From Clostridia bacterium (lineage in GTDB: Bacteria > Bacillota > Clostridia > Oscillospirales > RGIG5554), in contig JAFWAE010000056.1 of NCBI GenBank assembly GCA_017507855.1, positions 1 through 64,000 on the forward strand: a DNA stretch of 64,000 bases, in the 5' to 3' direction. A model generated the notes under the pieces. The model worked only from the letters and a program-made list of their open reading frames with translations, did not search any database and had not been told where the DNA came from. Positions within the stretch are counted from its first letter, which is position 1; each line of letters opens with the position of its first letter. This document shows positions 27,007 through 35,177 of the stretch, in pieces. Position numbers and translations under genes: made by a program.

Positions 27007-27044
27007 AAGCAGTCATTCAGGGCTTGCAAAAAAGGAGAACGACG

Positions 27045-29801
27045 ATGAAAAAGTATTTGGTGTGGCTTTTAACATGGCTGATGACATTTCCCGTTGCATT
27101 GTTGAACGGATGCACTTCCGTTCCCGCCACTCAGCCCGATACGGCAGAGAAACCCATTGTGCCCAATACGGAATCGTTGACCGTGGACACAGATTTTTTC
27201 AAGCTGGAGCTGGAAGCCAAAACCTATCCCACCATTACGGCGGAAAGGGCAAATGAACTGGCTTCCGTTCCTTTGGGAGAATTGCGTGCTTATACGGTGG
27301 GGGACGAGACCTTTATCGCCACCTATAACGTGATGCAGTTTGGCGCCAAGGGTGATGGAAAGACCAACGATGTGAAGGCTTTTTTGCAGGCTATTCTGGC
27401 AGCGAGTGAGGCCGGAGGCGGTACGGTGTACGTGCCCGAGGGGACGTATTACCTCAAGGGTCGTTTTGATATTCCCGTCGGGGTGACTCTGCGGGGCACG
27501 TGGACCAAGGAAGAAGGGGGCACGCTGATTCTGGCCGACCCCATTGAAGGCTTGACTCCCTTGGCTTATTTCCGCCTCGATGACTGCACGGCGCTGAAGA
27601 ACCTTTCTTTCTACTACGTCAAGCAAAGTTTTGCCGAGCCTAAAAAATACGCCCCCACCGTAGGCGTTATTGCAAATCCCGTGGGCATTGAGCTGGCGGA
27701 TCTGATGTTCTACAATTCTTGGGAAATGATCTATTTTGCAGGGGCATCCAACGGTATGACCTCTGTGGAAAATGTGTACGGAACACCCCTGTCCGTGGGC
27801 TTGACCGTAGACTGTGCTCCCGATCTGAACCGTATCATGGGGTTGGATCTGCGACCCGATTATTATGCCCTATGCGGTTTTCCCGGTGCTCCCGCCAACG
27901 GGGAAGAGGTTAAAACGCTGGTTGACTGGATGTTTGACAATACCGTGGGTCTTATCAGCGAGCGCATCGACTGGCATTGTGTGTACGATTATACCTGCGC
28001 AGGGATGAAGGTAGGTATGTGGCTGCGTCCCAGCACTAAGCCTGCCGGTGATTTTCAAGGTCCTCCCAGTGGCTATATGTACAAGTTTATGATGGAAGGC
28101 TGCCAAACGGGTATTTTGGCAGATGATATTGCCTCGTCCGGCTTCCAATTTTCCTTGGGAAGTATTTGCTGTCCTGCCACCCGTGAGTCCGTGGCCATTC
28201 GCACAGGTAGCGGTTTTGTCAGCTATTTTTCCCTTAATGCCGTCCATGTCACCGGGGCTCCCGTTACGGTGATCCAAAGTGAGGGAAGCGGCATCATCAG
28301 CGCCGTGGATTGTGCTTTTGATTATTGGACGGGGGAGAGTGCTTGGAATATTGCGGGAGGAACAGCCTCTGCTGTGCGTTGTTCCTTCGGCAAGGCCGCT
28401 CAAACCATGATCTTCGGCAATAAGGTACGCTCTGCAACAATGCTGGCTTGCCTGATGAAGGCAGGCACACCCGATCCCGATGTGTCCAATCTTGCAAAGT
28501 GGGTAGTTGGGGATGATTGCGGCGATTTTCCTGCTCTGAACAATTATGACCATCCCGAGTTCACCGGAAAAGCGGAGCCTGCCGCTAAAAATATCATTCT
28601 GGCCACCGATTACGGTGTGACTCCCGAGGCAGAGGATATTACCGAGGCTTTGCAGAATGCGTTGAACGCGGCGGCCCAACAGGGTGGAGGCTACGTATAC
28701 GTGCCTGCGGGCATCTATCATCTTCGAGGCTCGGTGAAGGTACCCTCCGGTGTAGAGCTGCGCGGCGTTCTGGATCTGATCCACCATCCTTGCTTTACTT
28801 TGGGCTCCGCCTTTTATGTCTACGGCGGTAAGGGGGACGAAAATGCCCCCGCTACCATTGAATTGGAGGCTCGTGCGGGGATTACGGGCATGACCTTCTA
28901 CTACCCCGAGCAGGGGTATGTTTCCGATACGTATGTGGAATATCCGTGGTTGGTTCGCGGCTTGGGCGAAGGGGTATATCTGCGCTACGTGGAAATGCCC
29001 AACGTATATAACGGCGTGGACTTCGGCACCAATAAATCCGACGGCCATTTCGTGGAATATCTCATGGGCCAAAGCATTCGCCGCGGCATCTTCGTGGGTA
29101 ATAACAGCACGGAGGGCTGGCTGGAAAACATCCATTTCGTTCCTCATATTATGCAGGATATCAAGGGTGTGACCAAGCCCGCAGGGACTACGTCTACCAA
29201 AGTGCACGTGGGCTTGATGGAGCAAAATGAATTCTTTATTTTCGGTTATACGGAAAAGGAGTACGTGTTTAACTGTGTTTCCTACGGCTCTTTGAATGCC
29301 ACGCTTTTTGTGGAGCAAAACGGCCGCGGTGCCAACGCGGAAATGCTGGCCTATTACGTGGACTCCTCCCGCTGTGCCGTGCGTGTGGAGAAAGCGGAAA
29401 ATGTGAATTTCTACTCTGCCGATCTGATCGCCTACCATGAAGAAACTCACGAAAACGTACAATTGCAGACCAATGTGGGAAGCACGGGCAAGCTGACCTT
29501 CTTTAACAGCGAAGAGCATGGCCCCAGTATGGGATCTGCTTGGTTGAAGGGGTGCGACGTAACTTACGTTCAGCATCATTTCTTTGAGCCGGGACAGACC
29601 ATGGCAGATATCGGCGCCAACGCCAAATGTCGCGTTTTTGCTTCCACTGTGCGTACGGCTACGTCTTATAAAACGGCGGCGCCCGAGAATTTGATTTTGG
29701 TCGGTAATATTCTGTACGGTCCTTTGGGGATAGAAAAGCTTCCGGGATTTAAGGGGCAGGCTCAATATAACGTGTTTACGGCCGTTAAGCTGACTCATTG
29801 A
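27045..29801 (+). CDS. Large lipoprotein with two beta-helix (pectate-lyase-like) domains, copy 1
   Basis: About 918 residues. The lipoprotein signal ends in lipobox LLNGC. After a spacer, a first right-handed beta-helix domain begins with YNVMQFGAKGDGKTND, the opening of pectate_lyase_3 / GH28-like helices, followed by GGGTVYVPEGTYYLKGRF. A second copy of the same opening occurs near residue 520 (ATDYGVTPEAEDITEALQNA, then GGGYVYVPAGIYHLRGSV), so the protein holds two helices in series. The enzymatic residues cannot be assigned; it may bind or degrade a polysaccharide at the cell surface. ATG 27045 follows AAAGGAG. A close paralogue follows after 34 nt. Confidence 0.78.
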   Translation: MKKYLVWLLTWLMTFPVALLNGCTSVPATQPDTAEKPIVPNTESLTVDTDFFKLELEAKTYPTITAERANELASVPLGELRAYTVGDETFIATYNVMQFGAKGDGKTNDVKAFLQAILAASEAGGGTVYVPEGTYYLKGRFDIPVGVTLRGTWTKEEGGTLILADPIEGLTPLAYFRLDDCTALKNLSFYYVKQSFAEPKKYAPTVGVIANPVGIELADLMFYNSWEMIYFAGASNGMTSVENVYGTPLSVGLTVDCAPDLNRIMGLDLRPDYYALCGFPGAPANGEEVKTLVDWMFDNTVGLISERIDWHCVYDYTCAGMKVGMWLRPSTKPAGDFQGPPSGYMYKFMMEGCQTGILADDIASSGFQFSLGSICCPATRESVAIRTGSGFVSYFSLNAVHVTGAPVTVIQSEGSGIISAVDCAFDYWTGESAWNIAGGTASAVRCSFGKAAQTMIFGNKVRSATMLACLMKAGTPDPDVSNLAKWVVGDDCGDFPALNNYDHPEFTGKAEPAAKNIILATDYGVTPEAEDITEALQNALNAAAQQGGGYVYVPAGIYHLRGSVKVPSGVELRGVLDLIHHPCFTLGSAFYVYGGKGDENAPATIELEARAGITGMTFYYPEQGYVSDTYVEYPWLVRGLGEGVYLRYVEMPNVYNGVDFGTNKSDGHFVEYLMGQSIRRGIFVGNNSTEGWLENIHFVPHIMQDIKGVTKPAGTTSTKVHVGLMEQNEFFIFGYTEKEYVFNCVSYGSLNATLFVEQNGRGANAEMLAYYVDSSRCAVRVEKAENVNFYSADLIAYHEETHENVQLQTNVGSTGKLTFFNSEEHGPSMGSAWLKGCDVTYVQHHFFEPGQTMADIGANAKCRVFASTVRTATSYKTAAPENLILVGNILYGPLGIEKLPGFKGQAQYNVFTAVKLTH

Positions 29802-29835
29802 CGTGAAAATATAAAAGCGTGAGAGGATGTTGGAA

Positions 29836-32586
29836 ATGGGAAAATACGTGGCGTATGCATTGGCCTTGGCGATGGTGGTCTCCGTGTGTATGTTCTCGGG
29901 ATGTGTGGAAAAAAAGCCCGTTAATCCGGGTGTGTCCACTGCCCAATCGCTGACGGTGGACACCGATTTTTCCAAGCTGAATGTGGAAACTCAAGCTTAT
30001 CCAACCATCACAGAGGAAAGCGCAAACGAACTGGCTTCCGTACCCGTGGGGGAATTGCGCACCTATACGGTGGGCGGGGAAACATTTATTGCTTCCTATA
30101 ACGTGATGCAGTTCGGCGCCAAGGGCGACGGGAAGACCAACAATGCCAAGGCTTTTTTGCAGGCCATCACGGCGGCCAAAAATGCCGGAGGCGGTGTGGT
30201 GTATGTGCCCGCGGGAACCTATTACCTGAAGGGGCGCTTTGAGATCCCCACGGGTGTGACCCTGCGCGGTAGCTGGACCAAGGAAGAGGGTGGGACCCTG
30301 ATCCTGGTAGAACCTATTGAGGGGTTGGTCCCGCAACCTTATTTGACCATGACCAGCAGTTCGGCTTTGAAGAACCTTTCCTTCTACTACGTGGGGCAGA
30401 ATTTTGCTCAGCCTGTGGAGTTTGCCCCCACGGTGGGAATTAAGGGGAATCCTACGGGGATCGAACTGTGCGACCTGATGTTTTACAACTCTTGGGAAAT
30501 GATCTGCTTTTCCAAGGGCTCTACGGGGATGACCTCGGTGGACAACGTGTACGGTACCCCCTTGTCCTTGGGCATTATCGTGGACTGCGCCCCCGATCTG
30601 AACCGTATTATGGGCTTTGATCTGCGCCCCGATTACTATGCCCTTTGCGGCTTTCCCGGGGCCCCTACCAACGGGGAAGAGGTCAAGGTGTTGGTCAACT
30701 GGATGTTTGAAAATACGGTGGGCCTGGTCAGCGAACGTATCGACTGGCACTGTGTGTACGATTATACCTGTGCCGGCATGAAGGTGGGGATGTGGTTGCG
30801 CAACAGTACCCAGCCCGCTTCTCCCACGTTTAAAGGCCCTCCCAGCGGTTATATGTACAAATTTACCATGGAAGGCTGCCAGACCGGCATCCTGATGGAC
30901 GATTCTTCTGCCGCGGGCTTTCAGTTTTCTTTGGGAAAAATCAACTGCCCTGTAAGCCGCGAATCCGTGGCTATCCGCTTGGGTGAGGGATTTGAGACCT
31001 ATATGTCCTTGAACTCCGTACACGTGACGGGTTTTCCTGTGGCGGTCATTCAAAGCGAAGGCAGCGGCATCATCAGCGCTGTGGATTGCGCCTTTGACAA
31101 CTGGACGGGAGAGGCGGCCTGGACGTTGGCCGGCGGGACGGCTTCCGCCGTGCGTTGCTCCTTTGGCAAGGCCGCCCAAACCATGAGCTTTGATAAAAAA
31201 GTGCGCTCTGCTATGATGCTGGGTTGCCTGACGCAAGCGGGCACGCCCGAGCCGGAGACGGCTTCCCTGAAAAAATGGGTCGTGTCCGACGATTGCGGAG
31301 AATTTCCCTCTTTGAATCAGTACGATCACCCCGCATTTACGGGGAAGGCGGAGCCGGCTTCCAAAAATATTGTCCTGGCCTCTGATTACGGCGTAACTCC
31401 CGAAGCGGAGGACATTACGCAAGGCCTTCAAAATGCCCTGAATGCAGCGGCCCAACAGGGTGGCGGTTACGTGTACCTGCCTGTGGGTGTGTACCATTTG
31501 CGCGGCTCGGTGAAGGTGCCCACAGGCGTGGAACTGCGCGGCGCCATGGATATGATCCATCACCCCTCCTACACCATGGGTACGGCCTTCTATATTTACG
31601 GCGGCAACGGCAACGAAAACGCCTCGGCCACCATTGAGCTGGAGGCTCATGCAGGGGTCACGGGCATTACCTTCTATTACCCCGACCAGGGCTATTTCCA
31701 AGGCAGTTATATTGAATATCCCTGGCTGATCCGCGGTTTGGGCGAGGGTGTGTACGTGCGCTACGTGCATTTTGTCAACGTATACAACGGCATTGACTTC
31801 GGCACCTATAAATCCGACGGCCATTTTGTGGAATACCTCATGGGGCAGACCATTCGGCGCGGCATTTTCGTAGGCAACAACAGCACGGAGGGATGGCTGC
31901 AAAACATTCATTTCGTTCCCCATTCTATGCACAGCCCTCTGGTGGACAATAAGCCCGATATGAGCCAAGCCTCCACTTGGCCAAAGATCTCTAACGGCCT
32001 GATGGAACAAAATGAGTTTTATATTTTTGGCGATACCAACAAAGAGTACGTATTTAACTGCTGCTCCTTTGGCTCGCTGAATGCCACTCTGTTTGTGGAG
32101 CAAAACGGCAGGGGTGCCAACGTGGAGGCTCTGGCCTATTACGTGGACTCTTCGCGCTGTGCGGTGCGGGTAGAAAAGGCAGGAAGTGTGAATTTTTACT
32201 CCTCCGATTTCATCGTTTATCACCTGGACACCAACGAAAACGTGCAGCTTCAAACAAATGAGGGAAGCACGGGTAAGCTGACCTTCATCAACTGCGAGCA
32301 GCACGGCCCCAACGTGGGGTCTGCCTGGTTAAAGGGATGCGACGTGACCTACGTCCAGCATGAGTTTTTCGAGCCGGGCGGAAAACTGGCAGATATTCAA
32401 AACGACGCCACGTGCCGTATCTTTGCCGGCACCGTACGCACCGGCACCATCTACAAAACAGAGATCCAAACCAACCTTTCTCTGGTGGGCAATATTTTGC
32501 ACGGCTCCACCGTTTCCGGGACCATTCCCGGCTTTAACGGCGAGGCGAAAAACAACATTCCCACCTGGGTACAGCTGGTTCCGTAA
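29836..32586 (+). CDS. Large lipoprotein with two beta-helix domains, copy 2
   Basis: About 916 residues, collinear with copy 1 and roughly 70% identical by eye, including both helix openings (NVMQFGAKGDGKTNN and SDYGVTPEAEDITQGLQNA), LNRIMG-DLRPDYYALCGFPG, SERIDWHCVYDYTCAGMKVG and SDGHFVEYLMGQ. The signal peptide ends in lipobox FSGC. The leader and linker diverge most, and the helices stay conserved. ATG 29836 is better spaced from GAGAGG than ATG 29827. The two copies form one unit ending at a large hairpin terminator. Two specialised enzymes or binders for related glycans are plausible. Confidence 0.78.
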   Translation: MGKYVAYALALAMVVSVCMFSGCVEKKPVNPGVSTAQSLTVDTDFSKLNVETQAYPTITEESANELASVPVGELRTYTVGGETFIASYNVMQFGAKGDGKTNNAKAFLQAITAAKNAGGGVVYVPAGTYYLKGRFEIPTGVTLRGSWTKEEGGTLILVEPIEGLVPQPYLTMTSSSALKNLSFYYVGQNFAQPVEFAPTVGIKGNPTGIELCDLMFYNSWEMICFSKGSTGMTSVDNVYGTPLSLGIIVDCAPDLNRIMGFDLRPDYYALCGFPGAPTNGEEVKVLVNWMFENTVGLVSERIDWHCVYDYTCAGMKVGMWLRNSTQPASPTFKGPPSGYMYKFTMEGCQTGILMDDSSAAGFQFSLGKINCPVSRESVAIRLGEGFETYMSLNSVHVTGFPVAVIQSEGSGIISAVDCAFDNWTGEAAWTLAGGTASAVRCSFGKAAQTMSFDKKVRSAMMLGCLTQAGTPEPETASLKKWVVSDDCGEFPSLNQYDHPAFTGKAEPASKNIVLASDYGVTPEAEDITQGLQNALNAAAQQGGGYVYLPVGVYHLRGSVKVPTGVELRGAMDMIHHPSYTMGTAFYIYGGNGNENASATIELEAHAGVTGITFYYPDQGYFQGSYIEYPWLIRGLGEGVYVRYVHFVNVYNGIDFGTYKSDGHFVEYLMGQTIRRGIFVGNNSTEGWLQNIHFVPHSMHSPLVDNKPDMSQASTWPKISNGLMEQNEFYIFGDTNKEYVFNCCSFGSLNATLFVEQNGRGANVEALAYYVDSSRCAVRVEKAGSVNFYSSDFIVYHLDTNENVQLQTNEGSTGKLTFINCEQHGPNVGSAWLKGCDVTYVQHEFFEPGGKLADIQNDATCRIFAGTVRTGTIYKTEIQTNLSLVGNILHGSTVSGTIPGFNGEAKNNIPTWVQLVP

Positions 32587-33771: not shown

Positions 33772-33803
33772 AAAACGGGCGGGAACATTCCCGCCCGTTT
33801 TTC
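33772..33803. terminator. Bidirectional terminator after thiT
   Basis: A 13-14 bp GC-rich stem (AAAACGGGCGGGA with its complement) with a very tight loop and T5. It lies between thiT and the peptide gene and leaves only ~35 nt before the next start. Confidence 0.85.
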
Positions 33804-33836
33804 CGTCTAAAGGGTAAGGAAAGGAAGGTTTTACCT

Positions 33837-34133
33837 ATGAAGATCAAGCCTGTCAAATGCGCGGGTGAGCCCGCTTACCCCGGTTGGAAGAAGACGGCTG
33901 CCTTACTGAGCAGCGCGGCAGTGGTGGCTATGGTGCAGGGCTGTACGCCCAAGCCACCCGAAACTCTGAGTTACGACGGCGGGATGCTGGTACCGGATAC
34001 GGAACCTTTAACAGAGGAGGTGGCCACCGCAGGTGTGCCGGCCCTGACGGAGGAGCTGTCCATCCCGGGCGAGCCCGTGCTCACGGAGGAATTGGCTTTG
34101 GCGGGGGACGTGGCCGTTCCCCAAGGAGAATAG
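33837..34133 (+). CDS. Putative radical-SAM-modified precursor peptide with LTEE repeats
   Basis: 98 residues, unknown family. The N-terminal part has Cys8 and the segment AGEPAYPGWKK, then a hydrophobic stretch (about 20-34) ending in VQGC at residue 36, which resembles a lipobox. Residues about 55-90 hold three 12-residue repeats: TEPLTEEVATAG, VPALTEELSIPG and EPVLTEELALAG. The invariant positions are L-T-E-E and the final Gly. The tail is acidic and ends QGE. The gene has an AAGGAAGG ribosome site and stops 3 nt before a radical SAM/SPASM gene. This arrangement (small repeat peptide followed by rSAM maturase) suggests a RiPP-type substrate; a short acidic lipoprotein is the alternative. 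Confidence 0.6.
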   Translation: MKIKPVKCAGEPAYPGWKKTAALLSSAAVVAMVQGCTPKPPETLSYDGGMLVPDTEPLTEEVATAGVPALTEELSIPGEPVLTEELALAGDVAVPQGE

Positions 34134-34136
34134 ACC

Positions 34137-35177
34137 GTGAACCTGACCTATCATGTTACGGAGTGTTGCCAGCTTGCCTGTAAATACTGCTTCGTTTGCG
34201 GCGGCGGGAGGAAAATGACATGGCAGACTGCTGAAGCGGGGGTGCGCTTGCTGGCGTCTCTGCCTGATAAAACTGCGGGAATCGCCTTTTTCGGAGGAGA
34301 GCCTTTATTGGAACGGGACTTGGTGGAGCATACGGTGCGCTTTGCTTTAGCAGAAGCACCCGATAAACGCTGGAGCTTTAACATGACCACCAACGGATTG
34401 CTGCTGGATGAGACTTTTTTGCATTTTGCCAATGAAAACGGCTTGCGCGTGGCCCTTTCCCATGACGGGGCGGCTCACGATGAGATGCGTGTAGATGGGC
34501 AGGGCAGAGGAACGGCCGGGGCACTGGAGAAAAAGATCGATCTTTTGTTGAGCCATCAACCTCGTGCTGTAGCTATGTGTACGGTTTGTGTCAAGACGCT
34601 TCCACGGCTTTATGAGTCTCTTCGTTGGCTTTTTGAGCGTGGCTTTCAGCGGGTCAATTGCGCTTATGATTGCCGTCCCGAGGCAGGGTGGGAGGAGGCG
34701 CATTTTGAAGAATTCGCCCGCCAATACGGTTTGTTGCAGGACTATTTGTTCCAACAAGCTTTGCAGGGAAAGCACCTGGACTTCATTCCTTTTACCGCCA
34801 AGATCCGCACTCATCTTTGCAAGCCCCGGGATCTTTGCCGATTAGGCAAAAAACAGCCTTCCGTGGCCCCTGACGGTAAGCTGTACCCTTGCATTCAGTT
34901 TGTGGATGCCGCCGATTACGCCATAGGCGACGTGTATGCGGGGATAAATCGCGAACGCCGAGAGGAGATCTATCTTCAAAGTCTGCAGCTTGCCGAAGAA
35001 TGCGCCGATTGCGCGTATAAGGAACGCTGCCGTCACGGTTGCGCCTGTGTGAATTTTCAGTATTCAGGCAGTTTAAGAGAGGTATCTCCCGTGCAATGCG
35101 CCCACGAACGGGTGCTGATTCCCGCGGCGGACCGTTTGGGGGAACGGCTGTGGGAAAAAGGCTTGCTGAAAATTTGA
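34137..35177 (+). CDS. Radical SAM / SPASM peptide-maturase-like enzyme
   Basis: 346 residues. The radical SAM cluster motif CQLACKYC is at residues 11-18, unusually near the start, with extra Cys at 10 and 21. GGEPLL, NMTTNG and SHDG follow in the usual order of the barrel. The C-terminal SPASM domain has CX12GX4C (CRLGK...DGKLYPC) and then CADCAYKERCRHGC with a final Cys in SPVQC, enough for two auxiliary 4Fe-4S clusters. No PqqD-like recognition domain is evident. GTG start, preceded by AAGGAG. It is coupled to the peptide gene, its presumed substrate. The chemistry (thioether, C-C link or epimerisation) cannot be read from sequence. Confidence 0.85.
   Translation: MNLTYHVTECCQLACKYCFVCGGGRKMTWQTAEAGVRLLASLPDKTAGIAFFGGEPLLERDLVEHTVRFALAEAPDKRWSFNMTTNGLLLDETFLHFANENGLRVALSHDGAAHDEMRVDGQGRGTAGALEKKIDLLLSHQPRAVAMCTVCVKTLPRLYESLRWLFERGFQRVNCAYDCRPEAGWEEAHFEEFARQYGLLQDYLFQQALQGKHLDFIPFTAKIRTHLCKPRDLCRLGKKQPSVAPDGKLYPCIQFVDAADYAIGDVYAGINRERREEIYLQSLQLAEECADCAYKERCRHGCACVNFQYSGSLREVSPVQCAHERVLIPAADRLGERLWEKGLLKI

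Follow-up and report, generated by a model that had tools for sequence, protein, structure and literature searches.

A tagged lipoprotein and a radical SAM/SPASM enzyme as a conserved gene pair and putative RiPP-like modification system in Clostridia

The window analysed here, a stretch of 64,000 nucleotides of DNA from a Clostridia bacterium, carries a gene for a 98-residue peptide that is followed 3 nt downstream by a gene for a radical SAM/SPASM enzyme, both on the plus strand and at the positions given in a preliminary description of this DNA. From sequence comparison we consider it probable (roughly three chances in four) that they represent a RiPP-like lipoprotein modification system, in which the SPASM enzyme would modify glycine-centred units of a tagged lipoprotein that is exported and lipidated by housekeeping machinery. 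The genetic logic generally expected of RiPPs, i.e. a ribosomal precursor with leader and core beside a clustered enzyme, appears to be present. The family of this pair is conserved across Clostridia, is named by none of the libraries searched and is apparently undescribed. The preliminary description had already interpreted the two genes as a substrate and its SPASM enzyme; this pairing is borne out by conserved co-occurrence, whereas its choice of LTEE residues as modified positions is abandoned here. The features of the locus are the following.

33772..33801, called on the minus strand: terminator-like hairpin with a 13-pair stem in the gap between the ThiT-like gene and the precursor gene
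33816..33828, plus strand: Shine-Dalgarno-like stretch of the precursor gene, AAGGAAAGGAAGG
33837..34133, plus strand: precursor lipoprotein gene, predicted substrate (ATG start, TAG stop, 98 aa)
33837..33893, plus strand: putative leader (recognition tag) in the n-region of the signal peptide, MKIKPVKCAGEPAYPGWKK, detected by a held-out profile of partner leaders
33894..33944, plus strand: hydrophobic segment and lipobox VQGC with Cys36, this Cys being invariant in the partners
33969..33992, plus strand: candidate core unit 1, SYDGGMLV, residues 45-52 (compare DYAGGMDV in L067)
34023..34046, plus strand: candidate core unit 2 (loose match), ATAGVPAL (compare RTAGIPLA in the long partner of L032)
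34059..34082, plus strand: candidate core unit 3 (loose match), SIPGEPVL (compare MLEGEPAL in the long partner of L004)
34095..34118, plus strand: candidate core unit 4, ALAGDVAV (identical 8-mer in partners of L067, L070, L084 and L107)
34123..34128, plus strand: Shine-Dalgarno-like AAGGAG of the enzyme gene
34137..35177, plus strand: radical SAM/SPASM maturase gene (GTG start, 346 aa)
34167..34190, plus strand: radical SAM cluster motif C11-x3-C15-x2-C18, invariant in the alignment of homologues
34836..35099, plus strand: SPASM region from C234 to C321, seven-Cys set plus C304 (CxC); TIGR04085 46 bits, cut-off 27

The hairpin at 33772..33801 suggests that precursor and enzyme form a unit of their own, and neither the upstream neighbour, a ThiT-like thiamine transporter gene, nor the downstream aldose 1-epimerase gene looks tied to it. 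At 27024-32586 the window contains two tandem paralogous lipobox proteins of ~920 aa with two pectate-lyase-like (PF12708) regions each; the tag described below is absent from their signal peptides.

In an alignment of 23 homologues the radical SAM cysteines, the seven SPASM cysteines (C234, C252, C289, C292, C298, C302 and C321) and C304 are invariant or almost so, in agreement with the full SPASM set reported earlier. The enzyme scores above the cut-offs for Radical_SAM (PF04055) and for the general SPASM model TIGR04085 and reaches no specific family cut-off in Pfam or NCBIfam, the best values being 175 bits for PapB and 146 bits for the SCIFF maturases. Its AlphaFold2 model (pLDDT 92) has the CteB/AnSME fold (TM 0.87/0.85) with CteB (5why) as nearest fold in the PDB. 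C304 (35046-35048) is a conserved extra cysteine in the CxC that ends the SPASM motif and occurs also in the PapB-like enzymes of L081 and L082; CteB, a SCIFF maturase, is without an equivalent (CAAN there). This residue could close the open site of auxiliary cluster I.

The precursor, which matched no Pfam or NCBIfam model at E<=10, has the features of a bacterial lipoprotein as read from its sequence (basic n-region, hydrophobic stretch, lipobox Cys), and Cys36 is predicted to be the lipidated first residue of the mature protein. Its VQGC lipobox and three 12-residue repeats, TEPLTEEVATAG (residues 55-66), VPALTEELSIPG (67-78) and EPVLTEELALAG (79-90), lie exactly where they had been placed before. 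At the DNA level the repeats share 17-23 of 36 nt, and LTEE is encoded differently in each of them (TTA ACA GAG GAG, CTG ACG GAG GAG and CTC ACG GAG GAA); therefore, they are not recent DNA duplications and point to selection at the protein level. Any 4-mer was present three times in 9 of 20,000 shuffles of the tail. The repeats had been described as free of cysteine and aromatic residues, which holds for the three 12-mers but not for the unit SYDGGMLV preceding them, which contains a tyrosine.

Enzymes of the same clade are ~32-44% identical to the window enzyme. Profile searches found them in 6 of 394 genomes of the order, in 16 of 391 of the class (E<=1e-65) and in 50 of 85 of one Clostridia genus, many of the genomes compared being MAGs. 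The phylum sample yielded two further lineages, and a scan of genome collections added a Ruminiclostridium MAG and a sheep-rumen Clostridia MAG. Two matches of the phylum scan (L081, L082) were left out since they belong to a different PapB-like family with other small partners. Where enough flanking sequence is available, one to four lipobox proteins adjoin the enzyme on the same strand, mostly upstream, at nearly every locus; partners with both tag and lipobox adjoin it in L003, L004, L005, L032, L033, L037, L039, L041, L043-L051, L079, L080 and others, and in L040 such a partner lies one gene away, downstream of the enzyme. Among 43 loci, no neighbour other than these partners belongs to a gene family that recurs from lineage to lineage.

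Within the genus, enzyme and tag occur together in 46 genomes, the enzyme alone in 4, the tag alone in 1 and neither in 34 (Fisher p 4e-18, a value that ignores phylogeny, the genomes being related and the counts not independent). Three of the four enzyme-only genomes contain an adjacent tagged lipobox protein too divergent for the profile (L046, L135, L136), and in the fourth (G823) the contig stops at the enzyme, so that a tagged partner is present in 49 of 50 enzyme-bearing genomes and the fiftieth is cut by the contig end. Together with almost all other sampled lineages these 49 genomes provide the conserved co-occurrence that had been proposed as a check. The two opposite patterns named in the preliminary description were not borne out, which favours the link: enzymes are not regularly without such a partner, and genomes that lack the enzyme almost never have the tag (a single tag-only genome among 85). 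Unit number varies, short partners holding 0 to 6.

In the phylogenetic reconstruction the lipoprotein-associated enzymes form a single clade (support 94/83; one change needed in 96% of bootstrap trees), in which the window enzyme groups with the enzymes of long partners (support 91/84, long branch) though its own partner is short. Viral carriage was considered and rejected: viral contigs gave weak relatives only (<=35% identity), and none of the three that were included in the tree groups within the clade. Among plasmids no relatives of the enzyme were found. One locus of genome G458 (L052:1380-2970) is seemingly decayed, with stops in the enzyme frame and a frame-broken downstream partner that keeps its leader and GGEVMLSGAVEV units. 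About 10 of the 52 enzyme matches in the genus show one internal stop (TAG, TGA or TAA; L053, L060, L070, L074 and others), which may reflect overrun of the profile past the end in some and decay or assembly error in others.

The partners differ widely in both sequence and length and fall into two size classes: long ones of ~200-320 aa, often in two tandem copies and with a conserved C-terminal helix, and short ones of ~60-145 aa with acidic tails, to which those of the window and L033 belong. Every partner opens with a conserved stretch before the hydrophobic segment. This N-terminal tag, located in the n-region of a type II signal peptide, reads MKI.P.K.Y..P.YP, with the variants MKI.P.K(D/N)YKKPLYA in the genus, PVKKY..P.YP...(15-18 aa)...LP.RWK in the long type and MKIKPVKCAGEPAYPGWKK in the window. 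When 1159 window ORFs were searched with a profile of 25 partner leaders that excluded the window's own, the window peptide came out on top (E 5.7e-4; next 0.26). The window leader is missed by a profile restricted to the genus (E 8.2) and picked by the pooled one. Net charge over the first 14 residues has a median of +3 in 77 distinct leaders. The lipobox Cys is kept in every aligned partner, and of the two ideas put forward in the preliminary description that of a lipid-anchored peptide modified on its tail is thus the better one. Residue -1 to this Cys is G, A or S in all 77 leaders, a descriptive count, as the collection demanded a small residue there; the divergent partner L135 (SMC) departs from it.

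Comparison of the tails leads to a core unit with the consensus [LYI]-x-G-[EDG]-[VAT]-x-[IV]. The pattern [YLIMVF]xG[GDEA][VMIATL]x[VILMA] was seen 94 times in 67 non-redundant mature tails versus 3.4 +/- 1.8 (maximum 9) in composition-preserving shuffles, a contrast that measures strength and is not a blind test, the pattern having been drawn after inspection of some tails. Around the glycine, position -4 is V, P, I or L in 89%, -2 is L, Y or I in 97%, -1 is A, D or E, +1 is E or D in 72% or G in 23%, +2 is V, A, T or I and +4 is I or V; positions -2 and +1 are partly fixed by the search pattern, and -4, +2 and +4 are free. The alternation of hydrophobic residues through the glycine suggests that the unit is bound as an extended strand. 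In the window peptide units 1 and 4 follow the motif strictly and units 2 and 3 loosely. Its tail has an exact 8-mer in common with partners of other genomes; a match of this length came up once when the tail was shuffled 5000 times, and 1385 control pieces taken from window ORFs gave none (maximum 6). No recognisable unit is present in 9 of 58 short partners, and the long partners (200-320 aa) contain one diverged unit only or the Gly-rich variant HGxGRGSFGC.

LTEE-like words were seen three times, all in the window peptide, against 1.1 expected. Thr, Glu and Leu of LTEE had been the favoured sites of modification; as these words are not enriched in other partners and the Gly-centred motif is, LTEE was rejected as core and is, as judged from these tails, mostly a lineage-specific spacer, the unit common to the partners being centred on glycine. 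A thioether core and a cyclophane core are unlikely too, since the units contain neither a fixed Cys nor a fixed aromatic residue, only unit 1 of the window having one.

The following sequence of events is proposed. In a first step, which is well supported, the SPASM enzyme would recognise the partner by the tag in its signal-peptide n-region and act in the cytosol, while the tail is unfolded. It would then modify every Gly-centred unit [LYI]-x-G-[EDG]-[VAT]-x-[IV] once, starting with hydrogen abstraction by the 5'-deoxyadenosyl radical in or beside the L/Y-x-G stretch. Our first guess for the reaction is a crosslink or desaturation (~-2 Da per unit), our second epimerisation (0 Da); the candidate reactions left are ring formation or desaturation at hydrophobic residues, or epimerisation. 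Sec export, Lgt lipidation and cleavage by signal peptidase II are established lipoprotein biology. Sec would export the protein, Lgt would lipidate Cys36 in the predicted lipobox, and signal peptidase II would cut just before this residue, taking off leader and signal together. No dedicated peptidase or transporter would be needed because these three export and lipidate the protein and remove its leader. The mature product would be a lipid-anchored, acidic, repeat-modified surface tail. Perhaps the modification serves surface lipoproteins by making their membrane-proximal linkers stiffer or better protected; alternatively, short tails could be lipid-anchored bioactive peptides. A signal peptide that doubles as leader needs some means of delaying export, which counts against the model.

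Among the 93 tag matches of the genus, 22 come from enzyme-bearing genomes in which the enzyme is on another contig (hand count), some of them deep inside long contigs, e.g. in G771:C2 at 270 kb of 849 kb. Contig breaks could explain some of these unlinked proteins, not all. Short tails are found in L125-L132, among them the tagged peptide of G837 (L132), a genome with no partner beside its enzyme; others are mature proteins of 150-360 residues, several of which start with one or two units (SLAGETTV in L116, IEGDISI in L120, YAGDEQV and IEGDVMI in L123). The tagged proteins encoded away from the enzyme's contig, some of which carry additional large domains, indicate that it probably works in trans, and in this genus one enzyme would probably serve many tagged lipoproteins via their membrane-proximal linkers. 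The wider reading, a lipoprotein-tailoring pathway in which one cytosolic radical SAM enzyme uses the n-region tag and modifies Gly units in membrane-proximal linkers of many unrelated lipoproteins in trans, as general surface-protein modification and not as a natural-product pathway, is tentative, and we lean slightly against it. In the window's own genome the tag search gave no second tagged protein at E<0.1. Three of the unlinked tagged lipoproteins of the genus, of ~400 aa (L117-L119), have a HELTH stretch that resembles a zinc-peptidase site; L118 and L119 have no Pfam match.

Among curated profiles the PapB family (NF047865) is nearest, with 175 bits for the window enzyme and 176-219 for other clade members at a cut-off of 340. 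PapB joins Cys to Asp or Glu (PMC9413430), but its Cys-x(n)-Asp/Glu core motifs are absent from the window, and Cys is at no fixed place in 58 short partners. The SCIFF maturases (TIGR03974; CteB 5wgg/5why) have the same fold (TM 0.87) and the same seven-Cys SPASM layout; in contrast, identity is 24-25%, and the window enzyme is without the N-terminal domain, the alignment beginning at CteB residue 99. Identity as SCIFF maturase was rejected (146 bits vs 425; the neighbour is a lipobox repeat peptide, not a SCIFF peptide), and a separate true SCIFF maturase is present in the same genome (L002, 583 bits). Also rejected were a CXXX-repeat maturase (TIGR04115; 126 bits vs a cut-off of 350, no CXXX repeats) and the cyclophane systems YhhB, AmcB and FxsB (YhhB 62 bits, cut-off 445; AmcB 46 bits, cut-off 425; aromatic residue in unit 1 only).

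That the pair is a conventional ranthipeptide or sactipeptide system, in which Cys-to-X thioethers are formed with the lipobox Cys or scattered cysteines as donor and the lipobox is incidental, is improbable. This view could draw on PapB and SCIFF maturase as best NCBIfam profiles, on CteB as nearest fold, on the extra Cys of 33 of 58 short mature tails and on the acidic +1 residue in 72% of units, which recalls the Asp/Glu acceptors of PapB (PMC9413430). Yet the scores stay far under both cut-offs, the window tail has no Cys after Cys36, the extra cysteines have no fixed position in the unit (+5 in 7%), and the invariant Cys belongs to a lipobox of ordinary type, preceded by G, A or S in all 77 leaders. 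Slightly less credit still is given to ordinary lipoproteins that merely neighbour an enzyme with some other target: lipoproteins are common and the partners highly diverse, but the common tag ahead of the signal peptide, co-presence and co-absence of enzyme and tag throughout the genus, the single enzyme clade, Gly units conserved across unrelated tails and the lack of any other conserved neighbour argue against coincidence.

A more serious, though still unlikely, alternative is that the lipoprotein is modified, with the unit as assembly or ligand-binding motif and the modified residue elsewhere, e.g. in HGxGRGSFGC of the long partners or in the leader. Long partners indeed keep this Gly-rich stretch and the C-terminal LREQVRDF(I/L)xWLxxQGII helix better than the L-x-G unit, and their C-terminal domain is modelled confidently by AF2 (a fold-based function for it was sought and rejected, with no PDB match at E<=0.001; best 0.016, TM 0.19). 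In contrast, short partners consist of little beyond leader and units, and unit numbers of 0-6 are as expected for an iterated core, which favours modification of the Gly-centred units themselves.

In the family libraries the only precedent met for a radical SAM/SPASM enzyme with a putative lipoprotein is TIGR04133 (rSAM_w_lipo, an NCBIfam hypothetical equivalog), on which no paper was found among the open-access articles searched. It is a different enzyme family, alike in working, of which the window enzyme is no member (24 bits vs a cut-off of 425), and the window and genus precursors match no NCBIfam model. TvgB is a SPASM enzyme that iterates one modification over the Cys-free and aromatic-free repeat (TVGG) of TvgA and leads to a poly-cyclopropylglycine RiPP (PMC9062424); the likeness is by description, the repeat differs and the text of that paper names no lipoprotein. 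Bufferins and other MNIO-modified precursors represent RiPP-type modification of a Sec-exported precursor whose signal peptide is probably part of the recognition sequence, and ~16% of Buf2 have lipoprotein signal peptides (PMC12452194), but there an unrelated enzyme (MNIO) acts with a partner protein and mostly on Cys. For the tag, the units or the enzyme/lipoprotein pairing no description was found among the open-access articles searched. Each element has precedents, and the combination is without precedent within the searchable literature.

What is known of radical SAM peptide chemistry comes mostly from free peptides, which peptidases cut out or dedicated transporters export. In this family the leader appears to lie inside a lipoprotein signal peptide, so that housekeeping machinery would take care of export, anchoring and leader removal, for substrates as small as a 60-residue tail and as large as a 400-residue surface protein. 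If true, this would be a new Gram-positive cell-surface modification in Clostridia with a simple rule for finding substrates (tag, lipobox and L-x-G-[ED]) and a two-gene system for a SPASM reaction on non-aromatic, Cys-free units. Tailoring of many lipoproteins in trans, if shown, would exceed known precedents.

Two loci of the same genus (L170:1148-2553 in G709 and L171:1483-2858 in G450) contain a small lipobox protein with VYGPPPD repeats followed by a second, different radical SAM enzyme. These enzymes are TIGR04133-like (286 and 260 bits, under the cut-off of 425), their precursors match no precursor model, and by sequence they are a parallel pair of repeat lipoprotein and radical SAM enzyme. 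In the two excluded PapB-like loci (L081:413-2076 and L082:155-1757) the radical SAM enzyme is accompanied by ~140-aa peptides that end in segments of the HIHLGGNVYELNP / HLHLNDHIYVLN type.
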